Part shown: one piece after another, positions 14,635 to 33,262 of the stretch
Layout of the letters: every line of letters begins with the position of its first letter
Numbering within the stretch: the first letter of the stretch is position 1
Source: Gillisella vitis
Lineage (GTDB): Bacteria; Pseudomonadota; Alphaproteobacteria; Rhizobiales; Rhizobiaceae
Reading direction: 5' to 3'
DNA length: 64,000 nt
Assembly (NCBI RefSeq): GCF_001541345.2
Contig: NZ_LMVL02000002.1
Span: forward strand, 620,001 to 684,000
Position numbers and translations under genes: made by a program
The notes under the pieces: generated by a model
Told to the model about the DNA's origin: nothing
Databases searched by the model: none
What the model saw: the letters and a program-made list of their open reading frames with translations, nothing else

Positions 14635-14695
14635 AGCCACAGCACCCCTAAAAATAGAGGGTTTATAAACCATAGAACAGCGTGTTTGCGCATTG

Positions 14696-14717
14696 CGCCC
14701 CACCGTGGGCGTTTTTT
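14696..14717 (+). terminator. Rho-independent terminator after fliP
   Basis: CGCCC (14696-14700) pairs with GGGCG (14707-14711) across a 6-base loop and is followed by six T. It separates the rod/ring operon from the flagellin genes. Confidence 0.7.
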
Positions 14718-14838
14718 GCGTTGTTAATGTTTCTTTTACCAATCCTGTTGAGCTAACCTTAAAGCCGTGCGTGGTTATGTGCTGATTAGAGGCGAGTTAA
14801 ACAAACTCTAGTTAATTGACATGATGTCGATCGCTTCT

Positions 14839-14891
14839 GCCGGTATATAGTCCGGCATGTCCCTCTTTTGTATTGTGTAACCACAGGGACA
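14839..14891 (+). promoter_or_regulatory. Structured 5' leader of flagellin gene 1
   Basis: GCCGG (14839-14843) can pair with CCGGC (14852-14856). Immediately after, TGTCCCT (14858-14864) is perfectly complementary to AGGGACA (14885-14891), which contains the Shine-Dalgarno sequence upstream of the ATG at 14898. The other four flagellin leaders use TGTCCCTT with AAGGGGCA (one G-U pair), so the pairing here is kept by a compensating base. This supports a real RNA structure able to hide the ribosome-binding site. Confidence 0.65.
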
Positions 14892-14897
14892 GATCTG

Positions 14898-15857
14898 ATG
14901 ACAAGCATCATGACCAACAATTCGGCCATTTCGGCACTTTCCACGCTGCGCTCGATCAGCACGCAGATGGAAGACACACAGAGCGCAATTTCTTCCGGCT
15001 ACAAGGTCAAGGACGCATCCGACAACGCGGCCTATTGGTCAATCGCCACGACGATGCGTTCGGACAACAAGGCTATGTCTGCGGTGCAGGACGCACTCGG
15101 CGTTGGTGCCGCCAAGACGGATACGGCCTATACCGGCATGGAAGCCGCTATCGATGTCGTCTCCGACATCAAGGCCAAGCTGGTTGCCGCCCGCGAACCA
15201 GGCGTGGACAAGGACAAGATCAACAAGGAACTGACCGAGCTGAAGAACCAGCTGGGTTCTGTTGCCAAGTCCGCGTCGTTCAATGGCGAGAACTGGCTGT
15301 ATGACAACAGCGATACCACTGGCACGACCCAGGAAATGGTCGGCTCTTTCGTTCGTGGTTCCGATGGCAACGTGTCGATCAAGACGATCTCCTTCGATAC
15401 GACCAACTCGATGCTGATCAATGACGAGGCTGCTGCTGGTGGTCTGCTGACCAAGGACACCCTTGCGACTTACGCCTATGGTACAACGACGACAACCGCT
15501 TCCTATTACCTGATTTCCTCGATTGCAGGGGATGCGACCAGCAACGAAGTGACGCTGACCTCAACGACCAGCGACGACGAGATTGACGGCATGGTTGCCT
15601 CGGTCGATAAGATGTTGTCCAGCATGACGGATGCTGCTGCCACCATCGGTGCGACAAAGAGCCGGATCGAGTCACAGTCCAGCTTTGCAAAAGACCTCAG
15701 CGACACGATTGATGTCGGTATCGGCAAGCTGGTGGATGCGGACATGAACGAGGAATCGACCAAGCTGAAGGCGTTGCAGACGCAGCAGCAGCTGGGTATC
15801 CAGGCGCTGTCGATCGCCAACTCCAGCACAGAAAACGTCTTGTCGCTCTTCCGCTAA
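14898..15857 (+). CDS. flaA: Flagellin 1
   Basis: This is a filament subunit exported through the flagellar apparatus. The 319-residue product has the conserved N-terminal D0/D1 region (MTSIMTNNSAISALSTLRSI) and C-terminal D1/D0 region (LQTQQQLGIQALSIANSS, ending LSLFR). The start at 14898, not the longer in-frame GTG/ATG region upstream, aligns with the other flagellins and has AGGGA 8 bp before it. Its ends differ from copies 2-4 while the middle (about residues 120-250) is almost identical to them. First position in the array corresponds to flaA of S. meliloti; the symbol is by position. Confidence 0.95.
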   Translation: MTSIMTNNSAISALSTLRSISTQMEDTQSAISSGYKVKDASDNAAYWSIATTMRSDNKAMSAVQDALGVGAAKTDTAYTGMEAAIDVVSDIKAKLVAAREPGVDKDKINKELTELKNQLGSVAKSASFNGENWLYDNSDTTGTTQEMVGSFVRGSDGNVSIKTISFDTTNSMLINDEAAAGGLLTKDTLATYAYGTTTTTASYYLISSIAGDATSNEVTLTSTTSDDEIDGMVASVDKMLSSMTDAAATIGATKSRIESQSSFAKDLSDTIDVGIGKLVDADMNEESTKLKALQTQQQLGIQALSIANSSTENVLSLFR

Positions 15858-15884
15858 GAGACGATATAGTCATTTCAATCCAAG

Positions 15885-15914
15885 AGGCCGGACTGCAAGT
15901 CCGGCCTTTTTTTA
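15885..15914 (+). terminator. Terminator after flagellin 1
   Basis: AGGCCGGACT (15885-15894) pairs perfectly with AGTCCGGCCT (15898-15907) across GCA and is followed by a T run. Confidence 0.9.
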
Positions 15915-16052
15915 ATTTTTCGTTAATTTAACGATGTATTAACCAAGTAGTTTCGGAGTAAATTTATTTAAGTTAATAAATAAATCCGTTATTAGGGTAT
16001 TTTTAACTATATATGTTTTAAAACAGGCTATCGAAATCGGCGGGTTAACCTG

Positions 16053-16067
16053 TTAATTGAATGTTAA
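16053..16067 (+). promoter_or_regulatory. TTAA-N7-TTAA (CtrA-box-like) before flagellin 2
   Basis: TTAA at 16053-16056 and TTAA at 16064-16067 are separated by seven bases, the spacing of the alphaproteobacterial CtrA recognition sequence. Whether CtrA binds here is inference; the region is AT-rich, so chance matches are possible. Confidence 0.4.
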
Positions 16068-16091
16068 TCGCATGAGGCGAGCCGAATTTCA

Positions 16092-16138
16092 CCGGGGATA
16101 GCCCGGAATGTCCCTTCCTATGTGTCATCTAAGGGGCA
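16092..16138 (+). promoter_or_regulatory. Structured 5' leader of flagellin gene 2
   Basis: CCGGG (16092-16096) can pair with CCCGG (16102-16106). TGTCCCTT (16109-16116) can then pair with AAGGGGCA (16131-16138), which holds the ribosome-binding site 7 bp before the ATG at 16145. The layout is the same as in the other four flagellin leaders. Confidence 0.62.
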
Positions 16139-16144
16139 AGGCCT

Positions 16145-17104
16145 ATGACGAGTATTATGACGAACAACGCTGCGATTTCAGCACTTTCCACGCTGCGGTC
16201 GATCAGCTCCGATATGGACACCACCCAGAGTCGGATTTCCTCCGGTTATAAGGTCGAGAGCGCATCTGACAACGCGGCCTATTGGTCGATTGCCACAACG
16301 ATGCGCTCGGATAACAAGGCGCTTGGTGCTGTTGAGGACGCCATCGGCCTTGGTGCGGCCAAGACGGATACGGCCTATACCGGCATGGAATCGGCGATCG
16401 ATGTGGTTACCGATATCAAGGCCAAGCTGGTTGCTGCCCGCGAACCAGGCGTGGACAAGGAAAAGATCAACAAGGAATTGGTCGAGTTGAAGAACCAACT
16501 GGGTTCTGTTGCCAAGTCCGCGTCGTTCAATGGCGAGAACTGGCTGTATGACAACAGCGAAACCACTGGCACGACCCAGGAAATGGTCGGCTCTTTCGTT
16601 CGTGGTTCCGATGGCAACGTGTCGATCAAGACGATCTCCTTTGATACGACCAACTCGATCCTGATCAATGACGAGGCGGCTGCTGGTGGTCTGCTGACCA
16701 AGGACACCGTTGCGACTTACGCCTATGGTACAACGACGACAACCGCTTCCTATTACCTGATTTCCTCGATTGCAGGGGATGCGACCAGCAACGAAGTGAC
16801 GCTGACCTCAACGACCAGCGACGACGAGATTGACGGCATGGTTGCCTCGGTCGATAAGATGTTGTCCAGCATGACGGATGCTGCTGCCACCATCGGTGCG
16901 ACGACTTCGCGTCTGAAGTTGCAGGATAGCTTCATCAAGGACCTGAGCGACACGATCGACACGGGTGTGGGTCGTCTGGTGGATGCGGACATGAACGAGG
17001 AATCGACCAAGCTGAAGGCGTTGCAGACGCAGCAGCAATTGGGCATCCAGTCCCTGTCGATTGCCAACTCCAGCTCCGAGAATGTTATGTCGCTGTTCCG
17101 TTAA
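16145..17104 (+). CDS. Flagellin 2
   Basis: This filament subunit has 319 residues, with the conserved flagellin N- and C-terminal regions (MTSIMTNNAAISALSTLRSI; LQTQQQLGIQSLSIANSSSENVMSLFR). It differs from flagellin 3 mainly at residues around 72-120 (ESAIDVVTDIK, KEKINKELVELK). There it matches flagellin 4, while other blocks match flagellin 3 base for base. This mosaic suggests exchange between copies. AAGGGGC lies upstream of the ATG. It has its own terminator, so it is probably a separate transcription unit. Confidence 0.95.
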   Translation: MTSIMTNNAAISALSTLRSISSDMDTTQSRISSGYKVESASDNAAYWSIATTMRSDNKALGAVEDAIGLGAAKTDTAYTGMESAIDVVTDIKAKLVAAREPGVDKEKINKELVELKNQLGSVAKSASFNGENWLYDNSETTGTTQEMVGSFVRGSDGNVSIKTISFDTTNSILINDEAAAGGLLTKDTVATYAYGTTTTTASYYLISSIAGDATSNEVTLTSTTSDDEIDGMVASVDKMLSSMTDAAATIGATTSRLKLQDSFIKDLSDTIDTGVGRLVDADMNEESTKLKALQTQQQLGIQSLSIANSSSENVMSLFR

Positions 17105-17133
17105 GGATCCAATTCCACAGCATGGACACTTTT

Positions 17134-17166
17134 ATAGCCGGGTGATGAGCCCGGCTATTTTGTTTT
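17134..17166 (+). terminator. Terminator after flagellin 2
   Basis: ATAGCCGGG (17134-17142) pairs with CCCGGCTAT (17150-17158), followed by TTTTGTTTT. The stem resembles the one after flagellin 3. Confidence 0.88.
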
Positions 17167-17437
17167 CCTGATCCGCAATGTGCCGCTGTACGATTTTGGA
17201 TTGCACCTGTTTCCGATCAAACAGCCATATGAAGCCCTCGGCCATGGCCGTACTTGTGAATAGAATTCCGGTCGCTGGCTATCGTTAAACGAATCATCAT
17301 TTCATAAAATTTTTTGAATAATTTTTTCTCGTGATTTAGCAAGAATTAACCTAACTCGTTTTAAATAGAAACATCAAAACGACGGATTAATCTTTTGTTT
17401 AAAAAGGATTAATGGCATGAAGCGGAGCCGTCGTTCG

Positions 17438-17487
17438 CCGGGAAGGAGCCCGGGATGTCCCTTCCGTTTCCAGTTCCATAAGGGGCA
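17438..17487 (+). promoter_or_regulatory. Structured 5' leader of flagellin gene 3
   Basis: CCGGG (17438-17442) can pair with CCCGG (17449-17453). TGTCCCTT (17456-17463) can pair with AAGGGGCA (17480-17487), just before the ATG at 17494. Confidence 0.62.
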
Positions 17488-17493
17488 ACGCCT

Positions 17494-18453
17494 ATGACAA
17501 GTATTATGACGAACAACGCTGCGATTTCAGCACTTTCCACGCTGCGGTCGATCAGCTCCGATATGGAGACCACCCAGAGCCGGATTTCATCCGGTTATAA
17601 GGTCGAGAGCGCGTCGGACAACGCGGCCTATTGGTCGATTGCCACGACAATGCGTTCGGATAACAAGGCGCTTGGTGCTGTTGAGGACGCCATCGGCCTT
17701 GGTGCCGCCAAGACGGATACGGCCTATACCGGCATGGAAGCCGCTATCGATGTCGTCTCCGACATCAAGGCCAAGCTGGTTGCTGCCCGCGAACCGGGCG
17801 TGGACAAGGACAAGATCAACAAGGAACTGACCGAGCTGAAGAACCAGCTGGGTTCTGTTGCCAAGTCCGCGTCGTTCAATGGCGAGAACTGGCTGTATGA
17901 CAATAGCGAAACCACTGGCACGACCCAGGAAATGGTCGGCTCTTTCGTTCGTGGTTCCGATGGCAACGTGTCGATCAAGACGATCTCCTTCGATACGACC
18001 AACTCGATGCTGATCAATGACGAGGCTGCTGCTGGTGGTCTGCTGACCAAGGACACCCTTGCGACTTACGCCTATGGTACAACGACGACAACCGCTTCCT
18101 ATTACCTGATTTCCTCGGTTGCAGGGGATGCGACCAGCAACGAAGTGACGCTGACCTCAACGACCAGCGACGACGAGATTGACGGCATGGTTGCCTCGGT
18201 CGATAAGATGTTGTCCAGCATGACGGATGCTGCTGCCACCATCGGTGCGACGACTTCGCGTCTGAAGTTGCAGGATAGCTTCATCAAGGACCTGAGCGAC
18301 ACGATCGACACGGGTGTGGGTCGTCTGGTGGATGCGGACATGAACGAGGAATCGACCAAGCTGAAGGCGTTGCAGACGCAGCAGCAATTGGGCATCCAGT
18401 CCCTGTCGATTGCCAATTCCAGCTCCGAAAACGTGCTGTCGCTGTTCCGTTAA
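17494..18453 (+). CDS. Flagellin 3
   Basis: This filament subunit has 319 residues. Its first 70 and last 60 residues are nearly identical to flagellin 2. Residues about 72-120 (EAAIDVVSDIK, KDKINKELTELK) instead match flagellin 1, including at the DNA level. This is a second clear mosaic join in the array. The AAGGGGC ribosome-binding site and the leader before the ATG match those of flagellin 2. A strong terminator follows. Confidence 0.95.
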   Translation: MTSIMTNNAAISALSTLRSISSDMETTQSRISSGYKVESASDNAAYWSIATTMRSDNKALGAVEDAIGLGAAKTDTAYTGMEAAIDVVSDIKAKLVAAREPGVDKDKINKELTELKNQLGSVAKSASFNGENWLYDNSETTGTTQEMVGSFVRGSDGNVSIKTISFDTTNSMLINDEAAAGGLLTKDTLATYAYGTTTTTASYYLISSVAGDATSNEVTLTSTTSDDEIDGMVASVDKMLSSMTDAAATIGATTSRLKLQDSFIKDLSDTIDTGVGRLVDADMNEESTKLKALQTQQQLGIQSLSIANSSSENVLSLFR

Positions 18454-18482
18454 GCCTAGGGACGTCGAGAATCACCAAATAC

Positions 18483-18512
18483 ATAGCCGGGCGAAAGCCC
18501 GGCTATTTTTTT
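18483..18512 (+). terminator. Terminator after flagellin 3
   Basis: ATAGCCGGGC (18483-18492) pairs with GCCCGGCTAT (18497-18506) across the tetraloop GAAA, followed by seven T. Confidence 0.93.
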
Positions 18513-18811
18513 ATCCTGTTAGCAAAAAGCGCCTTGGCGGACGTCTTATCGATTATGCTGGTTCAGGGAATGACGAAGTTTCATTCATCGTGGCAATAAT
18601 CCAAACGGTATTTCAAGTGATTGATAAATAAGGAAAATTAAATTTCTCTATGATGGGAATGGCAGGTGCATGCCTGCACGCTTCCTCGCTGTATGGTTAA
18701 TATTTTTTCAAATTTATGTTTCGTTAACCATGGTGGTGTTTTCTGTGTTCACGAAAGCACTGGGCCGGACCAGCAGATAGAGATCCGGCGGGCATGAAGC
18801 CGACCAATGTT

Positions 18812-18862
18812 GCCGGTCTTAATCCGGCCTGTCCCTTTCCAAAGCAATCACCTCAAGGGGCA
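18812..18862 (+). promoter_or_regulatory. Structured 5' leader of flagellin gene 4
   Basis: GCCGG (18812-18816) pairs with CCGGC (18824-18828). TGTCCCTT (18830-18837) can pair with AAGGGGCA (18855-18862) ahead of the ATG at 18868. The ATG that precedes TGTCCC in other leaders is CTG here, so the element is not a conserved small reading frame. Confidence 0.62.
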
Positions 18863-18867
18863 CCTTT

Positions 18868-19827
18868 ATGACGAGCTTGATGACAAATACTGCCGCAATT
18901 TCAGCACTTTCGACCCTGCGGTCGATCTCCGACGACATGAACTCGACACAGAACAGAGTTTCGTCCGGCTACAAGGTTGAAAATGCATCTGACAACGCGG
19001 CCTATTGGTCGATTGCCACAACGATGCGCTCGGATAACAAGGCGCTTGGTGCTGTTGAGGACGCCATCGGCCTTGGTGCGGCCAAGACGGATACGGCCTA
19101 TACCGGCATGGAATCGGCGATCGATGTGGTTACCGATATCAAGGCCAAGCTGGTTGCTGCCCGCGAACCAGGCGTGGACAAGGAAAAGATCAACAAGGAA
19201 TTGGTCGAGTTGAAGAACCAACTGGGTTCTGTTGCCAAGTCCGCGTCGTTCAATGGCGAGAACTGGCTGTATGACAACAGCGAAACCACTGGCACGACCC
19301 AGGAAATGGTCGGCTCTTTCGTTCGTGGTTCCGATGGCAACGTGTCGATCAAGACGATCTCCTTTGATACGACCAACTCGATGCTGATCAATGACGAGGC
19401 GGCTGCTGGTGGTCTGCTGACCAAGGACACCGTTGCGACTTACGCCTATGGTACAACGACGACAACCGCTTCCTATTACCTGATTTCCTCGGTTGCAGGG
19501 GATGCGACCAGCAACGAAGTGACGCTGACCTCGTCCACCACGGACGACGAGATTGACGGCATGGTTGCCACGGTCGATAAGATGCTCTCGAACATGACGG
19601 ATGCTGCTGCCACCATCGGTGCGACGACTTCACGCCTGAAGTTGCAGGATAGCTTCATCAAGGACCTGAGCGACACGATCGACACGGGTGTGGGCCGTCT
19701 GGTGGATGCGGACATGAACGAGGAATCGACCAAGCTGAAGGCGTTGCAGACGCAGCAGCAGTTGGGCATCCAGTCCCTGTCGATTGCCAACTCCAACTCC
19801 GAAAACGTGTTGTCGCTGTTCAAATAA
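18868..19827 (+). CDS. Flagellin 4
   Basis: This filament subunit has 319 residues. The N-terminus (MTSLMTNTAAISALSTLRSISDDMNSTQNRVSSG) is more divergent than in copies 2 and 3. From about residue 50 to 215 the DNA is almost identical to flagellin 2. A short private segment (SSTTDDEIDGMVATVDKMLSNM) follows and the end is shared again. The protein ends ENVLSLFK, not FR. The pattern again indicates segmental exchange among the array. AAGGGGC precedes the ATG and a terminator follows. Confidence 0.95.
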   Translation: MTSLMTNTAAISALSTLRSISDDMNSTQNRVSSGYKVENASDNAAYWSIATTMRSDNKALGAVEDAIGLGAAKTDTAYTGMESAIDVVTDIKAKLVAAREPGVDKEKINKELVELKNQLGSVAKSASFNGENWLYDNSETTGTTQEMVGSFVRGSDGNVSIKTISFDTTNSMLINDEAAAGGLLTKDTVATYAYGTTTTTASYYLISSVAGDATSNEVTLTSSTTDDEIDGMVATVDKMLSNMTDAAATIGATTSRLKLQDSFIKDLSDTIDTGVGRLVDADMNEESTKLKALQTQQQLGIQSLSIANSNSENVLSLFK

Positions 19828-19980
19828 TACGGGGCTTGAAGGCGCTTACGCTTTTATTCTCAAAAAGTACAAAACTCCAAGCCGCAACAATGGCTTGGTG
19901 GTTTCACAAAGCCAGAGGCGACTACCGTTGGGATGCCCGAAATGGTGCTTGCCCGGTGTGTTGGCCCCACGATGTTTATC

Positions 19981-20009
19981 AAAGCCGCAGCACCCGCTGC
20001 GGCTTTTTT
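19981..20009 (+). terminator. Terminator after flagellin 4
   Basis: AAAGCCGCAGC (19981-19991) pairs with GCTGCGGCTTT (19996-20006) across ACCC, followed by a T run. It lies about 155 bp downstream of the stop codon. Confidence 0.88.
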
Positions 20010-20060
20010 CATGCGCGCTTTTCTTTGGTCTTGAAAAAATTAGGAATTCGTTTACGTCTA

Positions 20061-20096
20061 TTAAAAGTTTGCTAACCTGGTTAACCATTTGTTAAC
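20061..20096 (+). promoter_or_regulatory. Tandem CtrA-box-like sequences before flagellin 5
   Basis: TTAA-N7-CTAAC occurs at 20061-20076 and TTAA-N7-TTAAC at 20081-20096, about 140-175 bp before the ATG. The second is an exact match to the TTAA-N7-TTAA(C) pattern. Binding is inferred, not shown. Confidence 0.45.
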
Positions 20097-20182
20097 TAAT
20101 TCAAGGTTAATAATCTATGAACAACGTTGGGTTGGCTACCAGGGCAAGAGCGTAGCCGACGTGCATGAAGCAGACCAGCGTT

Positions 20183-20230
20183 GCCGGTGTCTTCCATAAA
20201 TCCGGCATGTCCCTTCACCTTCATGGGGCA
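20183..20230 (+). promoter_or_regulatory. Structured 5' leader of flagellin gene 5
   Basis: GCCGG (20183-20187) can pair with CCGGC (20202-20206) across a longer 14-base loop. TGTCCC (20208-20213) can pair with GGGGCA (20225-20230), which overlaps the ribosome-binding site of the ATG at 20235. The element is kept although the coding sequence is the most divergent of the five. Confidence 0.6.
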
Positions 20231-20234
20231 CTCT

Positions 20235-21197
20235 ATGACCAGCATTATGACCAATACCTCCGCTATGGCGGCTTTGCAGACCCTCCGTGGCATCGACCAG
20301 AACATGGAGACGACGCAGAACAGAATCTCGTCCGGCTATAAAGTCGACAGCGCCAAAGACAATGCCGCCTATTGGTCGATTGCGACCACGATGCGCTCCG
20401 ATAACAAGGCGCTTTCCACGGTTCAGGATGCTCTGGGGCTAGCTGCGTCCAAAGCAGATACCGCTTATACTGGTCTGGATTCCAGTATTGACGTGCTCAG
20501 CTCCATCAAGTCCAAACTGGTTGCGGCGCGCGAACCGGGCGTGGACAAGGACAAGATCAACCAGGAAATCAACGAGCTGAAGAACCAGCTCGCCTCCATT
20601 GCCGAATCCGCTTCATTCTCCGGCGAAAACTGGTTGTATAACGAATCGACCAATCCTCCCACCACCAAGGAAATGGTCGCCTCCTTCAACCGCGCCAGCG
20701 ACGGTACGGTGTCGGTTACCACATTGAAGTTCAACACGTCCGAATCGACCCTGATCGATACCCAGGATGCTGAAAACGGCATCCTGACACGGACCACGGT
20801 TGCGACCTGGGCCTACGGTACGACCACCACGACAGGCACTTATTACCTGCTGGACGCGGAGTCGGTGACGCCTGCCACCGGCACCGAAATCACCCTGACC
20901 ACCGACATGTCCAACGACGATCTCGATGGCATGATTTCAGCTGTCGATAAAATGCTTCAGGATCTGACCGATTCTGCTTCGACCTTGGGTGCGATCAGCA
21001 GCCGTATCGATTCCCAGGATACGTTCGTGAAAAACCTCAGCGATACGATCGACAAGGGCGTCGGGCGTCTGGTCGACGCGGATATGAACGAGGAATCCAC
21101 CAAGATCAAGGCACTGCAAACGCAGCAGCAACTTGGCATCCAGGCGCTGTCGATTGCCAATACCAATGCCGAAAACATCCTGACGCTCTTCAAGTAG
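20235..21197 (+). CDS. Flagellin 5 (divergent copy)
   Basis: This is a filament subunit of 320 residues. The start at 20235 aligns with the other flagellins; the longer in-frame reading from 20181 runs through the leader and is rejected. D0/D1 regions are conserved (MTSIMTNTSAMAALQTLRGI; LQTQQQLGIQALSIANTNAENILTLFK). The central domain is clearly different (NESTNPPTTKEMVASFNRASDG and DAESVTPATGTEITLTTDMSND), so this copy has escaped the exchange that homogenised copies 1-4. It may be a minor or position-specific filament component. Confidence 0.95.
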   Translation: MTSIMTNTSAMAALQTLRGIDQNMETTQNRISSGYKVDSAKDNAAYWSIATTMRSDNKALSTVQDALGLAASKADTAYTGLDSSIDVLSSIKSKLVAAREPGVDKDKINQEINELKNQLASIAESASFSGENWLYNESTNPPTTKEMVASFNRASDGTVSVTTLKFNTSESTLIDTQDAENGILTRTTVATWAYGTTTTTGTYYLLDAESVTPATGTEITLTTDMSNDDLDGMISAVDKMLQDLTDSASTLGAISSRIDSQDTFVKNLSDTIDKGVGRLVDADMNEESTKIKALQTQQQLGIQALSIANTNAENILTLFK

Positions 21198-32468: not shown

Positions 32469-32816
32469 ATGTACCAGTTTTCCTACAATGAGATTATGGA
32501 GGATGGGGTTGCCGACGCTAAGGAGCGTGAGCGCCAGGTTCTCGACAGATCGATAGACTTGCTGAGCCAGGCCAGGACTGCCGGAAAATACGGCCGTGAA
32601 GGCATTGAGGCTCTTTACTATACGCGCCGCGTCTGGATCCGCTTTATTGAGGATCTCAAGCAGCCGGACAACCAGCTTGGCACGGAACTTCGAGCCAATC
32701 TCATTTCAATTGCCCTTTGGATATTGAAGGAATGTGACCGCATCAGAAAGCGGGAATCCGACAATTACCAAGGCATAATCGATGTAACCACCATCATCAG
32801 GGATGGACTTAAATGA
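32469..32816 (+). CDS. flaF: FlaF, flagellin synthesis regulator
   Basis: FlaF is a small alphaproteobacterial protein needed for flagellin synthesis or secretion and works opposite FlbT in Caulobacter. The 115-residue product matches the family length, with the conserved helical pattern ([21 protein letters not shown], and [16 protein letters not shown]). It precedes flbT with a 4-bp ATGA overlap, the usual arrangement. Confidence 0.93.
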
Positions 32817-33262
32817 AGAGCACCTTGCGAATCTCGCTGAAATCCGGGGAACGAATCTTTATCAATGGTGCCGTTTTGCGCGTCGATCGGAAGGTTGCCC
32901 TTGAATTCTTGAACGATGTGACATTTCTGCTGGAAAACCACGTGCTCCAGCCGGAAGACGCCAATACCCCGCTACGCCAGCTCTATTTCATCGCCCAGAT
33001 GATTCTCATCAATCCGGAAGGCAAGGAACAGACGCTGACCATGTTCCGCAAGTCGATCGTGATGTTGCTGTCCTGCTTCCAGGATGACGAGATCCTGGCT
33101 GAATTGAAGCGGATCGACGCTCAGGTCGTCTCAGGGCGCGCCTTCGATGCATTGAAGGCCATTCGCGGTCTTTATCCTGTCGAGGATAGAATCCTGAACA
33201 ACCAGGAAATGGCACCGGCAACCATCGAGCAGATCCGCAAGGAGATCGCACCATGGCGGTAG
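32813..33262 (+). CDS. flbT: FlbT, post-transcriptional regulator of flagellin
   Basis: In Caulobacter FlbT binds the 5' untranslated region of flagellin mRNA and controls its stability; in some relatives it activates. The 149-residue product shows the family pattern ([46 protein letters not shown], and FKSIVMLL-like helices). All five flagellin mRNAs in this window have a shared structured leader, a plausible target. It overlaps flaF by 4 bp and flgD by 10 bp. Confidence 0.94.

Follow-up and report, generated by a model that had tools for sequence, protein, structure and literature searches.

A five-helix RNA leader upstream of the flagellin genes of Gillisella vitis and its association with one type of FlbT

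The 5′ untranslated region (5′UTR) of flagellin mRNA in Caulobacter crescentus is reportedly bound by FlbT, a result attributed to Anderson and Gober (2000). More generally, leaders that sequester the Shine-Dalgarno (SD) sequence form a class that includes riboswitches, RNA thermometers and ribosomal-protein leaders, and flagellin mRNA is also controlled by CsrA-FliW, for example in Campylobacter jejuni. FlbT binds the flagellin 5′UTR and represses in Caulobacter (PMC3930126; worded as 'proposed' in PMC4347634), is needed for flagellin (FliC) production in Brucella (PMC8781033), and was recovered, together with flaF, among the insertions of a motility screen in A. fabrum (PMC9812332), while a Phaeobacter flbT mutant was still motile (PMC11974857). 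A review calls the mode of action of FlbT unresolved and gives it effects in Caulobacter that are the opposite of those in Brucella (PMC4347634). Here, a structured RNA element preceding each of five flagellin genes was analysed computationally in a 64,000-nucleotide stretch of the Gillisella vitis genome (contig NZ_LMVL02000002.1, positions 620,001 to 684,000 of the forward strand; referred to as the window, with positions counted from its first letter).

The leader is ~120 nt long and comprises five helices. A long-range helix (H1; consensus arms AACGACGG with CCGUCGUU) closes a three-way junction with H2, a variable hairpin whose sequence is quite different between leaders, and H3, a small hairpin of the form NGC-AUGAN-GCN. 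These are followed by a GC (CCGG) hairpin (H4) and by an anti-SD (aSD):SD helix (H5), in which UGUCCC(U) pairs with the SD region. The sequence hardly varies in the AUGA of the H3 loop and in the CCGG of H4, and the loop lengths of H2 and H4 vary widely across leaders. The five flagellin ATGs are located at positions 14898, 16145, 17494, 18868 and 20235, and the genes and their leaders, with scores from a covariance model of the leader (R1), are as follows.

14781..14897, forward strand: leader of flagellin 1, H1 to H5 (R1 76.3 bits, E 3e-22)
14898..15857, forward strand: flagellin 1 (Pfam Flagellin_N and Flagellin_C)
16029..16144, forward strand: leader of flagellin 2 (R1 52.8 bits, E 6e-15)
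16145..17104, forward strand: flagellin 2
17371..17493, forward strand: leader of flagellin 3 (R1 79.3 bits, E 3e-23)
17494..18453, forward strand: flagellin 3
18749..18867, forward strand: leader of flagellin 4 (R1 80.0 bits, E 2e-23)
18868..19827, forward strand: flagellin 4
20116..20234, forward strand: leader of flagellin 5 (R1 76.9 bits, E 2e-22)
20235..21197, forward strand: flagellin 5 (Pfam Flagellin_N and Flagellin_C)

All five leaders are members of R1. Flagellins 2 to 5 are 90, 92, 87 and 66% identical to flagellin 1, and the nearest named flagellins, from Allorhizobium taibaishanense and Agrobacterium vitis, show ~90% identity (the window's own record was possibly excluded). Unconstrained folding gave the three-way junction with H4 and H5 for copy 1, all five helices with an additional 2-bp hairpin for copy 2, and all five helices for copy 5. 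By eye, a hairpin with a run of T was noted at 15883-15913, 17137-17163 and 18484-18512, behind flagellins 1, 2 and 3, consistent with separate transcripts.

An earlier note on the window, made from the letters alone, had described a two-part leader that hides the SD, consisting of a GC hairpin and TGTCCC(T/TT) before all five flagellin ATGs, with a partner at the SD. These parts were confirmed in the sequence; the two-part anatomy was not upheld, as there are five helices instead and the covarying block starts ~50-65 nt further upstream (R1 from 14781 in copy 1). The general proposal of a structured leader able to cover the SD is well supported by covariation, upstream of the part that had been seen. 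Across the whole genome, the pattern TGTCCCT-N10-30-GGGRCA was present six times on the forward and three times on the reverse strand (1 and 2 for the reversed-pattern control), corresponding to the five leaders, copy 1 read on the reverse strand (its arms being palindromic) and three places without relation to them. The short stretch of H4 and H5 gave no clear energy signal against shuffles (z of -1.59, +0.60, +0.44, -0.15 and -0.75 for the five copies), and full leaders had a mean energy z of -1.3 against mononucleotide shuffles (60 leaders). The positions of individual elements are given below.

20122..20130, forward strand: H1 5′ arm of copy 5, CAACGTTGG, pairing with 20175-20183
20175..20183, forward strand: H1 3′ arm of copy 5, CCAGCGTTG; the final two bases could also lengthen H4
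20131..20160, forward strand: H2 of copy 5, GTTGGCTAC / GTAGCCGAC; own pairing exceeds swapped and shuffled controls
20162..20172, forward strand: H3 of copy 5, TGC-ATGAA-GCA
17379..17385, forward strand: H1 5′ arm of copy 3, ACGACGG
17428..17434, forward strand: H1 3′ arm of copy 3, CCGTCGT
17386..17413, forward strand: H2 of copy 3, ATTAATC.../...GATTAAT
14838..14857, forward strand: H4 (GC hairpin) of copy 1; two-sided changes at the closing pair
14858..14864, forward strand: H5 anti-SD arm of copy 1, TGTCCCT
14885..14891, forward strand: H5 SD arm of copy 1, AGGGACA, all pairs Watson-Crick
16109..16116, forward strand: H5 anti-SD arm of copy 2
16131..16138, forward strand: H5 SD arm of copy 2, AAGGGGCA
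17456..17463, forward strand: H5 anti-SD arm of copy 3
17480..17487, forward strand: H5 SD arm of copy 3
18830..18837, forward strand: H5 anti-SD arm of copy 4
18855..18862, forward strand: H5 SD arm of copy 4
20208..20213, forward strand: H5 anti-SD arm of copy 5
20225..20230, forward strand: H5 SD arm of copy 5

The H2 loop of the copy 5 leader contains CCAGGGCAA. A conserved, SD-like CCAGGGCAAA was observed in the H2 loop of copy-5-type leaders (20131-20160 in the window; loci L079, L084, L089, L183 and relatives), where AGGGCA may act as a mimic.

Leaders were collected through a flagellin search of 101 family genomes, each from a different genus, and 40 genomes of the same genus as the window. 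A flagellin match at E <= 1e-20 was present in 83 of the 101 family genomes; the leaders were drawn from 51 of these 83 and from 34 of the 40 genus genomes, a sample that favours flagellins resembling those of the window. After the exclusion of 10 partial flagellins, the matches listed comprised 284 genes with 278 distinct leaders. In 160 of the 278, the CCGG hairpin and TGTCCC occurred together with a CATGA-type anchor, and 234 could be parsed into the H3 anchor and H4 (44 were unparsed or below the score cut). The alignment and the model used 93 of the 234 parsed leaders, no more than 75% alike, after identity and SD-score filters.

Covariation across these species was favourable to the structure, as the earlier note had proposed it should be checked, with abundant changes on both sides of a pair (two-sided changes) in the upstream helices and few lineages showing them for the aSD helix. 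With no structure supplied, RNAalifold predicted two helices from the 93 leaders, H1 and H5, and the six H1 pairs showed two-sided changes in 23, 8, 35, 22, 11 and 14 of the 93 sequences. When the five helices were named, 85.3% of the cells were paired and two-sided changes were present at all 7 pairs of H1. The two-sided cells numbered 301, compared to a shuffle mean of 119, with none of 500 shuffles reaching 301, and the covariation was 0.313 for the named helices and at most 0.101 when the partners were slid. Independently of any alignment, an H2 score of at least 16 was obtained for 42.7% of the 234 leaders, compared to 16.5% with 5′ halves swapped and 12.4% when shuffled; for H1, the same score was reached by 70.5% with own and 28.7% with swapped halves (234 Rhizobiaceae leaders). 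The flanking pairs of H3 covary, and many pair types are found along the whole of H1 as well as at the outer pair of H3. In a second covariation scan of 861 column pairs, the closing pair of H4 ranked first and the outer pair of H3 second. A phylogeny-aware G statistic was also raised at one mostly unpaired column pair and was not relied on.

The analysis of leaders from other families was based on 39 sequences. Among 53 leaders at these loci, 11 had no clean anchor, two of which were restored by hand for the H5 swap test, and three misfiled Rhizobiaceae leaders were removed for the 39-leader analyses. As 32 of the 39 came from loci fetched with R1, the set is biased towards the structure of the model. 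In these leaders, H3, H4 and H5 were predicted afresh, and an H1 score of at least 16 was reached by 51.3% with own and 26.4% with swapped halves. Each of the six H5 pairs is formed in 36-39 of the 39 leaders, and three of the pairs show two-sided changes (5, 5 and 1).

The earlier note had also named a compensatory change in the H5 of copy 1. This did not withstand analysis: the change is one-sided (U-G to U-A), the aSD U being constant and only its partner alternating between G and A, an alternation that is common (U-G in 47 and U-A in 41 of the 93 leaders). The SD-covering helix was kept with one-sided changes across the 93 leaders, and compensatory changes were confined to a few lineages (for example UGUCUUUC:GAAAGAC). 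These include UGUCUUU(C):(G)AAAGACG in four aligned leaders of genomes G064 and G100 (one genus, family f18), which were found via their flagellins and not via the model; UGUUUCG:CGAAACA in a further G064 leader; and UGUUCC:GGAACA in L117 and L118 of one Rhizobiaceae genome. G022 (f23) also has a two-sided change, in an extended H5 of GCUUCCCC with GGGGCAAGC.

The aSD was changed in 60 of the 234 parsed leaders (about a quarter). The GGGRCA motif was observed at the SD in 155 of 174 leaders with an intact aSD, 16 of 60 with a changed aSD and 4 of 44 unparsed leaders (intact versus changed, Fisher P ~2e-19, with relatives counted as independent). H1 persists in the 60 changed-aSD leaders, 73.3% of which reached the score with own and 42.9% with swapped halves; H3 and H4 are kept in them by construction of the set. 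The flagellin loci L191-L210 (TGCATGATGCC or AGCATGATGCC leaders), L127, L129, L135, L137, L141, L143 and L144 have kept H3 and H4 and lost UGUCCC. Such subgroups keep H1 as a set, and some lengthen H4 to CATACCGG/CCGGTATG. The retention of H1, H3 and H4 in lineages that lack UGUCCC suggests that the upstream platform has a role beyond H5.

With regard to the placement of the leader in the mRNA, a CtrA-like box (8 or more of 9 positions) begins 75-95 nt 5′ of the H3 loop in 122 of the 231 leaders, compared to 0 of 231 shuffles. In Sinorhizobium meliloti, flaA, flaB and flaC are direct CtrA targets (PMC4433202), and a survey based on transcription start sites lists CtrA motifs for flaA, flaC and flaD (PMC3616915). 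With a CtrA box over the -35 region, transcripts would be expected to begin just upstream of H1, and we infer that the leader is transcribed as drawn, with its start just 5′ of H1.

R1 identified the five leaders in the window's own genome at E 4e-13 to 1e-21. A sixth match in this genome (29.5 bits, E 7e-6; G000:C19:351393-351512, L220) is 5′ of a protoglobin-MCP (chemoreceptor) reading frame, which was read from a stop and has no usual start codon close behind the leader. The flagellin search of the same genome gave a seventh flagellin-like match, and no leader was found at the diverged flagellin at C13:979028 (L073). Outside the model, R1 recovered all of the four leaders that precede S. 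meliloti flagellins in L214 (42-74 bits); it also matched leaders of Agrobacterium vitis. Within the order, matches at E <= 0.01 were present in 34 of 150 genomes, representing 24 of 90 genera, and within the class in one of 240 sampled genomes at E <= 0.001 with strict filters, that one being the window's own. The inspected matches below ~1e-8 were all 5′ of flagellin genes, with three exceptions: L256 and L257 precede MCP genes (HAMP-MCPs, family f2), and L242 precedes a 274-residue frame. Weak matches (2e-4 to 0.0092) were found in nine genomes, and five of these (L251-L255) look like chance matches in coding DNA.

The earlier note had placed a FlbT gene at 32813, and a PF07378 match at 32813-33262 agrees with this. 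The flbT gene is thus present in the genome and in its flagellar cluster, next to flaF.

32469..32816, forward strand: flaF (PF07309, E 6e-34)
32813..33262, forward strand: flbT, type A by the tree, the proposed partner of the leader (PF07378, E 7e-43)

FlbT was present in 100 of the 150 genomes of the order, and the S. meliloti protein is 84.6% identical to that of the window. In a tree of 60 FlbT proteins, a branch with 100/100 support divides two deep types, for which the sequences (L351-L410) show the signatures INGAV...FLND-V.FLLE and ITN...RTRLFIEG-APILREKDI; some genomes carry both. Of the 25 genomes whose best R1 matches reached ~7e-9 or better, the tree included 24, nine weak-match genomes being excluded; leader-positive G113 (86% complete) had no FlbT match. 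The type-A side contained all 24 FlbT proteins from leader-positive systems together with four R1-negative genomes (G022, G064, G100 and G120), of which G064, G100 and G120 had been chosen because their FlbT resembled the leader type. On re-examination, G022, G064 and G100 had recognisable leaders, weakly scored or missed by R1, and no flagellin was found in G120 with the A2 model. The type-B side contained 28 of the 32 tested leader-negative genomes, along with a second FlbT copy from each of G035, G119, G143 and G149; in these four genomes, ~12-13 kb separate the leader-bearing flagellins from the type-A gene. When the 28 type-B genomes were searched again with R1, only two matches appeared, both near E 0.01 (G024 and G041). 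A search for a relative of FlbT with a solved structure gave no significant match.

Taken as a whole, the leader is probably a cis-acting translational RNA element that responds to FlbT. Computation supports the RNA structure, where it lies relative to the start codon, its confinement to the order among the genomes sampled and its association with the FlbT type; control of translation by H5, binding by FlbT, switching and its direction are what we infer from these. The ~120 nt before each flagellin start codon would act as a cis-acting RNA in the mRNA leader. H5 alone would hold translation low, with UGUCCC covering the SD, and a factor recognising the H1-H4 platform would decide whether H5 opens. 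This factor would most likely be the type of FlbT that the same flagellar cluster encodes, and in Rhizobiaceae its binding would most likely promote translation, so that flagellins and a few chemoreceptors might be translated together at the proper stage of assembly. Activation in Rhizobiaceae is a guess drawn from the reports on Caulobacter, Brucella, A. fabrum and Phaeobacter.

Several results weigh against this interpretation. The minimum-energy fold of copy 3 differs and lacks the junction, and that of copy 4 retains H5 and not the junction. An R-scape-like scan of a MAFFT alignment of 165 leaders found no pair below E 0.12, this alignment being shorter and cruder, with an upstream part truncated too far to include H1 and H2, and the free fold of the 39 other-family leaders predicted neither H1 nor H2. 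The six core pairs of H5 showed zero two-sided changes in the 93 Rhizobiaceae leaders, and although the two outer pairs showed 7 and 8, they were unpaired in 29 and 49 of the 93; in Rhizobiaceae, H5 is maintained by sequence, not by compensation. In 59 changed-aSD Rhizobiaceae leaders, H5 formed no better than with swapped SDs (P 0.98), and H5 seems to have been lost in such leaders. A second scan likewise gave H5 in Rhizobiaceae no general support, with 62 non-consensus-aSD leaders forming 3.48 of 6 pairs compared to a swapped expectation of 3.90, and in 19 changed-aSD leaders of the 'other' set, including the three misfiled Rhizobiaceae, own and swapped arms gave P 0.09. The two-sided H5 changes are confined to few lineages: of the 5 at each of two pairs in other families, four come from G064 and G100, and the fifth (L418 of G022) looks like a misalignment. 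The association of FlbT type with the leader (24 and 4 versus 0 and 32, Fisher P ~6e-13) counts relatives as independent and comes from genomes that were not chosen at random, with 32 of the 70 leader-negative FlbT genomes in the tree. It lends the FlbT proposal of the earlier note indirect support that is confounded with the type of flagellar system: the FlbT type goes together with the entire system, and binding need not follow from the association. Finally, FlbT represses in Caulobacter and is reported to activate in Brucella, which leaves the direction uncertain.

Other explanations were considered. It is rather unlikely that the same leader is read by a factor other than FlbT (FlaF, a flagellin co-repressor, a small RNA with Hfq, or temperature through melting of H5) or mainly sets the lifetime of the mRNA. 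The structure and covariation are independent of any ligand, the near-invariant AUGA of H3 and CCGG of H4 would suit protein or RNA contact of any sort, and the persistence of H1 in leaders without the UGUCCC arm would fit a platform serving more than H5. Set against this, FlbT is the protein for which binding to flagellin leaders was found reported in Alphaproteobacteria (PMC3930126, PMC4347634), and its type tracks leader presence, a comparison made for FlbT alone. We regard as very unlikely a role of the conserved block as DNA, with promoter or transcription-factor sites before a short leader and the palindromic GGCATGATGCC as a protein site. GGCATNATGCC is an inverted repeat and CtrA-like boxes are nearby; however, independently read half-sites do not account for the variety of pairs along H1 and at the outer pair of H3, the H2 and H4 loops differ widely in length, H5 is altered on both sides in some lineages, and the CtrA-like box is further upstream, at a preferred distance.

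A conserved upstream reading frame opened by the AUG of the H3 loop and controlling flagellin translation is highly improbable. The AUG hardly varies, and its frame stops, in copies 3 and 4, at a TGA overlapping the flagellin ATG; yet 107 of 237 leaders (45%) have the frame open as far as the start, compared to 43% when shuffled, the three frames are about equally common (89/76/72), and this candidate was rejected as showing no excess over shuffles. Similarity between paralogues through duplication or gene conversion, with chance complementarity and no functional structure, is hardly credible: it would suit the high identity of flagellins 2 to 5 to flagellin 1, but leaders across the family (one genome per genus) and in other families have kept the pairing while the sequence changed, and the excess of two-sided changes over shuffles contradicts chance complementarity.

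We tentatively put forward, as a possibility, that the leader is an undescribed RNA family, present in at least 10 families of the order, that defines a translational regulon of flagellins and chemoreceptors and has co-evolved with a distinct FlbT type, type A occurring with the junction leader and type B without it. If this were true, the opposite behaviours reported for FlbT, a repressor in Caulobacter and an activator in Brucella, would reflect two protein-RNA systems. A leader with defined helices in Sinorhizobium meliloti and Agrobacterium vitis turns the action of FlbT into concrete tests, and makes concrete the questions of which helix FlbT contacts, whether H5 opens, and why some lineages lost H5 but kept the junction. 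The covariance model R1 is a tool to find the regulon across the order, and the leader is a testable candidate for the timing of flagella synthesis in rhizobia and several related families.

The leader was compared to known systems. No Rfam 15 family matched the leader, and at five loci belonging to four families a search with E up to 0.5 likewise gave none; searches of the open literature, which mostly excludes subscription papers and so leaves absence unproven, brought up no paper describing this leader. The flg-Rhizobiales RNA (RF01736) is likewise a structured RNA 5′ of a flagellar gene in the same order. It gave no match at gathering in the window and none at E <= 10 over 14640-20300, and its best match in the genome (17.3 bits against a cut-off of 55) was at chance level and not at the flagellin leaders. 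The stronger RF01736 matches mostly precede flgF-like genes (the protein being read by eye) with TTGGGAGA-type segments, whereas the leader described here precedes flagellin and some MCP genes; identity with RF01736 was therefore rejected on the grounds of a different gene context and sequence. Across the order, matches to RF01736 (L013-L042) continue far under its cut-off; by the same reading most of them precede flgF-like genes, L032 being an exception, and the Rfam model may be too narrow.

Among leaders that sequester the SD, the likeness lies in an aSD helix at the start codon with a structured domain upstream, and the difference in the combination of the junction, the AUGA hairpin and the CCGG hairpin, which has no Rfam match. 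CsrA-FliW shares the post-transcriptional coupling of flagellin synthesis to assembly, through another protein and another RNA. The Caulobacter system is similar in having a flagellin mRNA leader, proposed translational control and FlbT in the same organism. It differs in that R1 matched one of the 240 class genomes, the window's own, C. crescentus not being known to be among them, and in that Caulobacter FlbT represses whereas that of Brucella is reported as activating.

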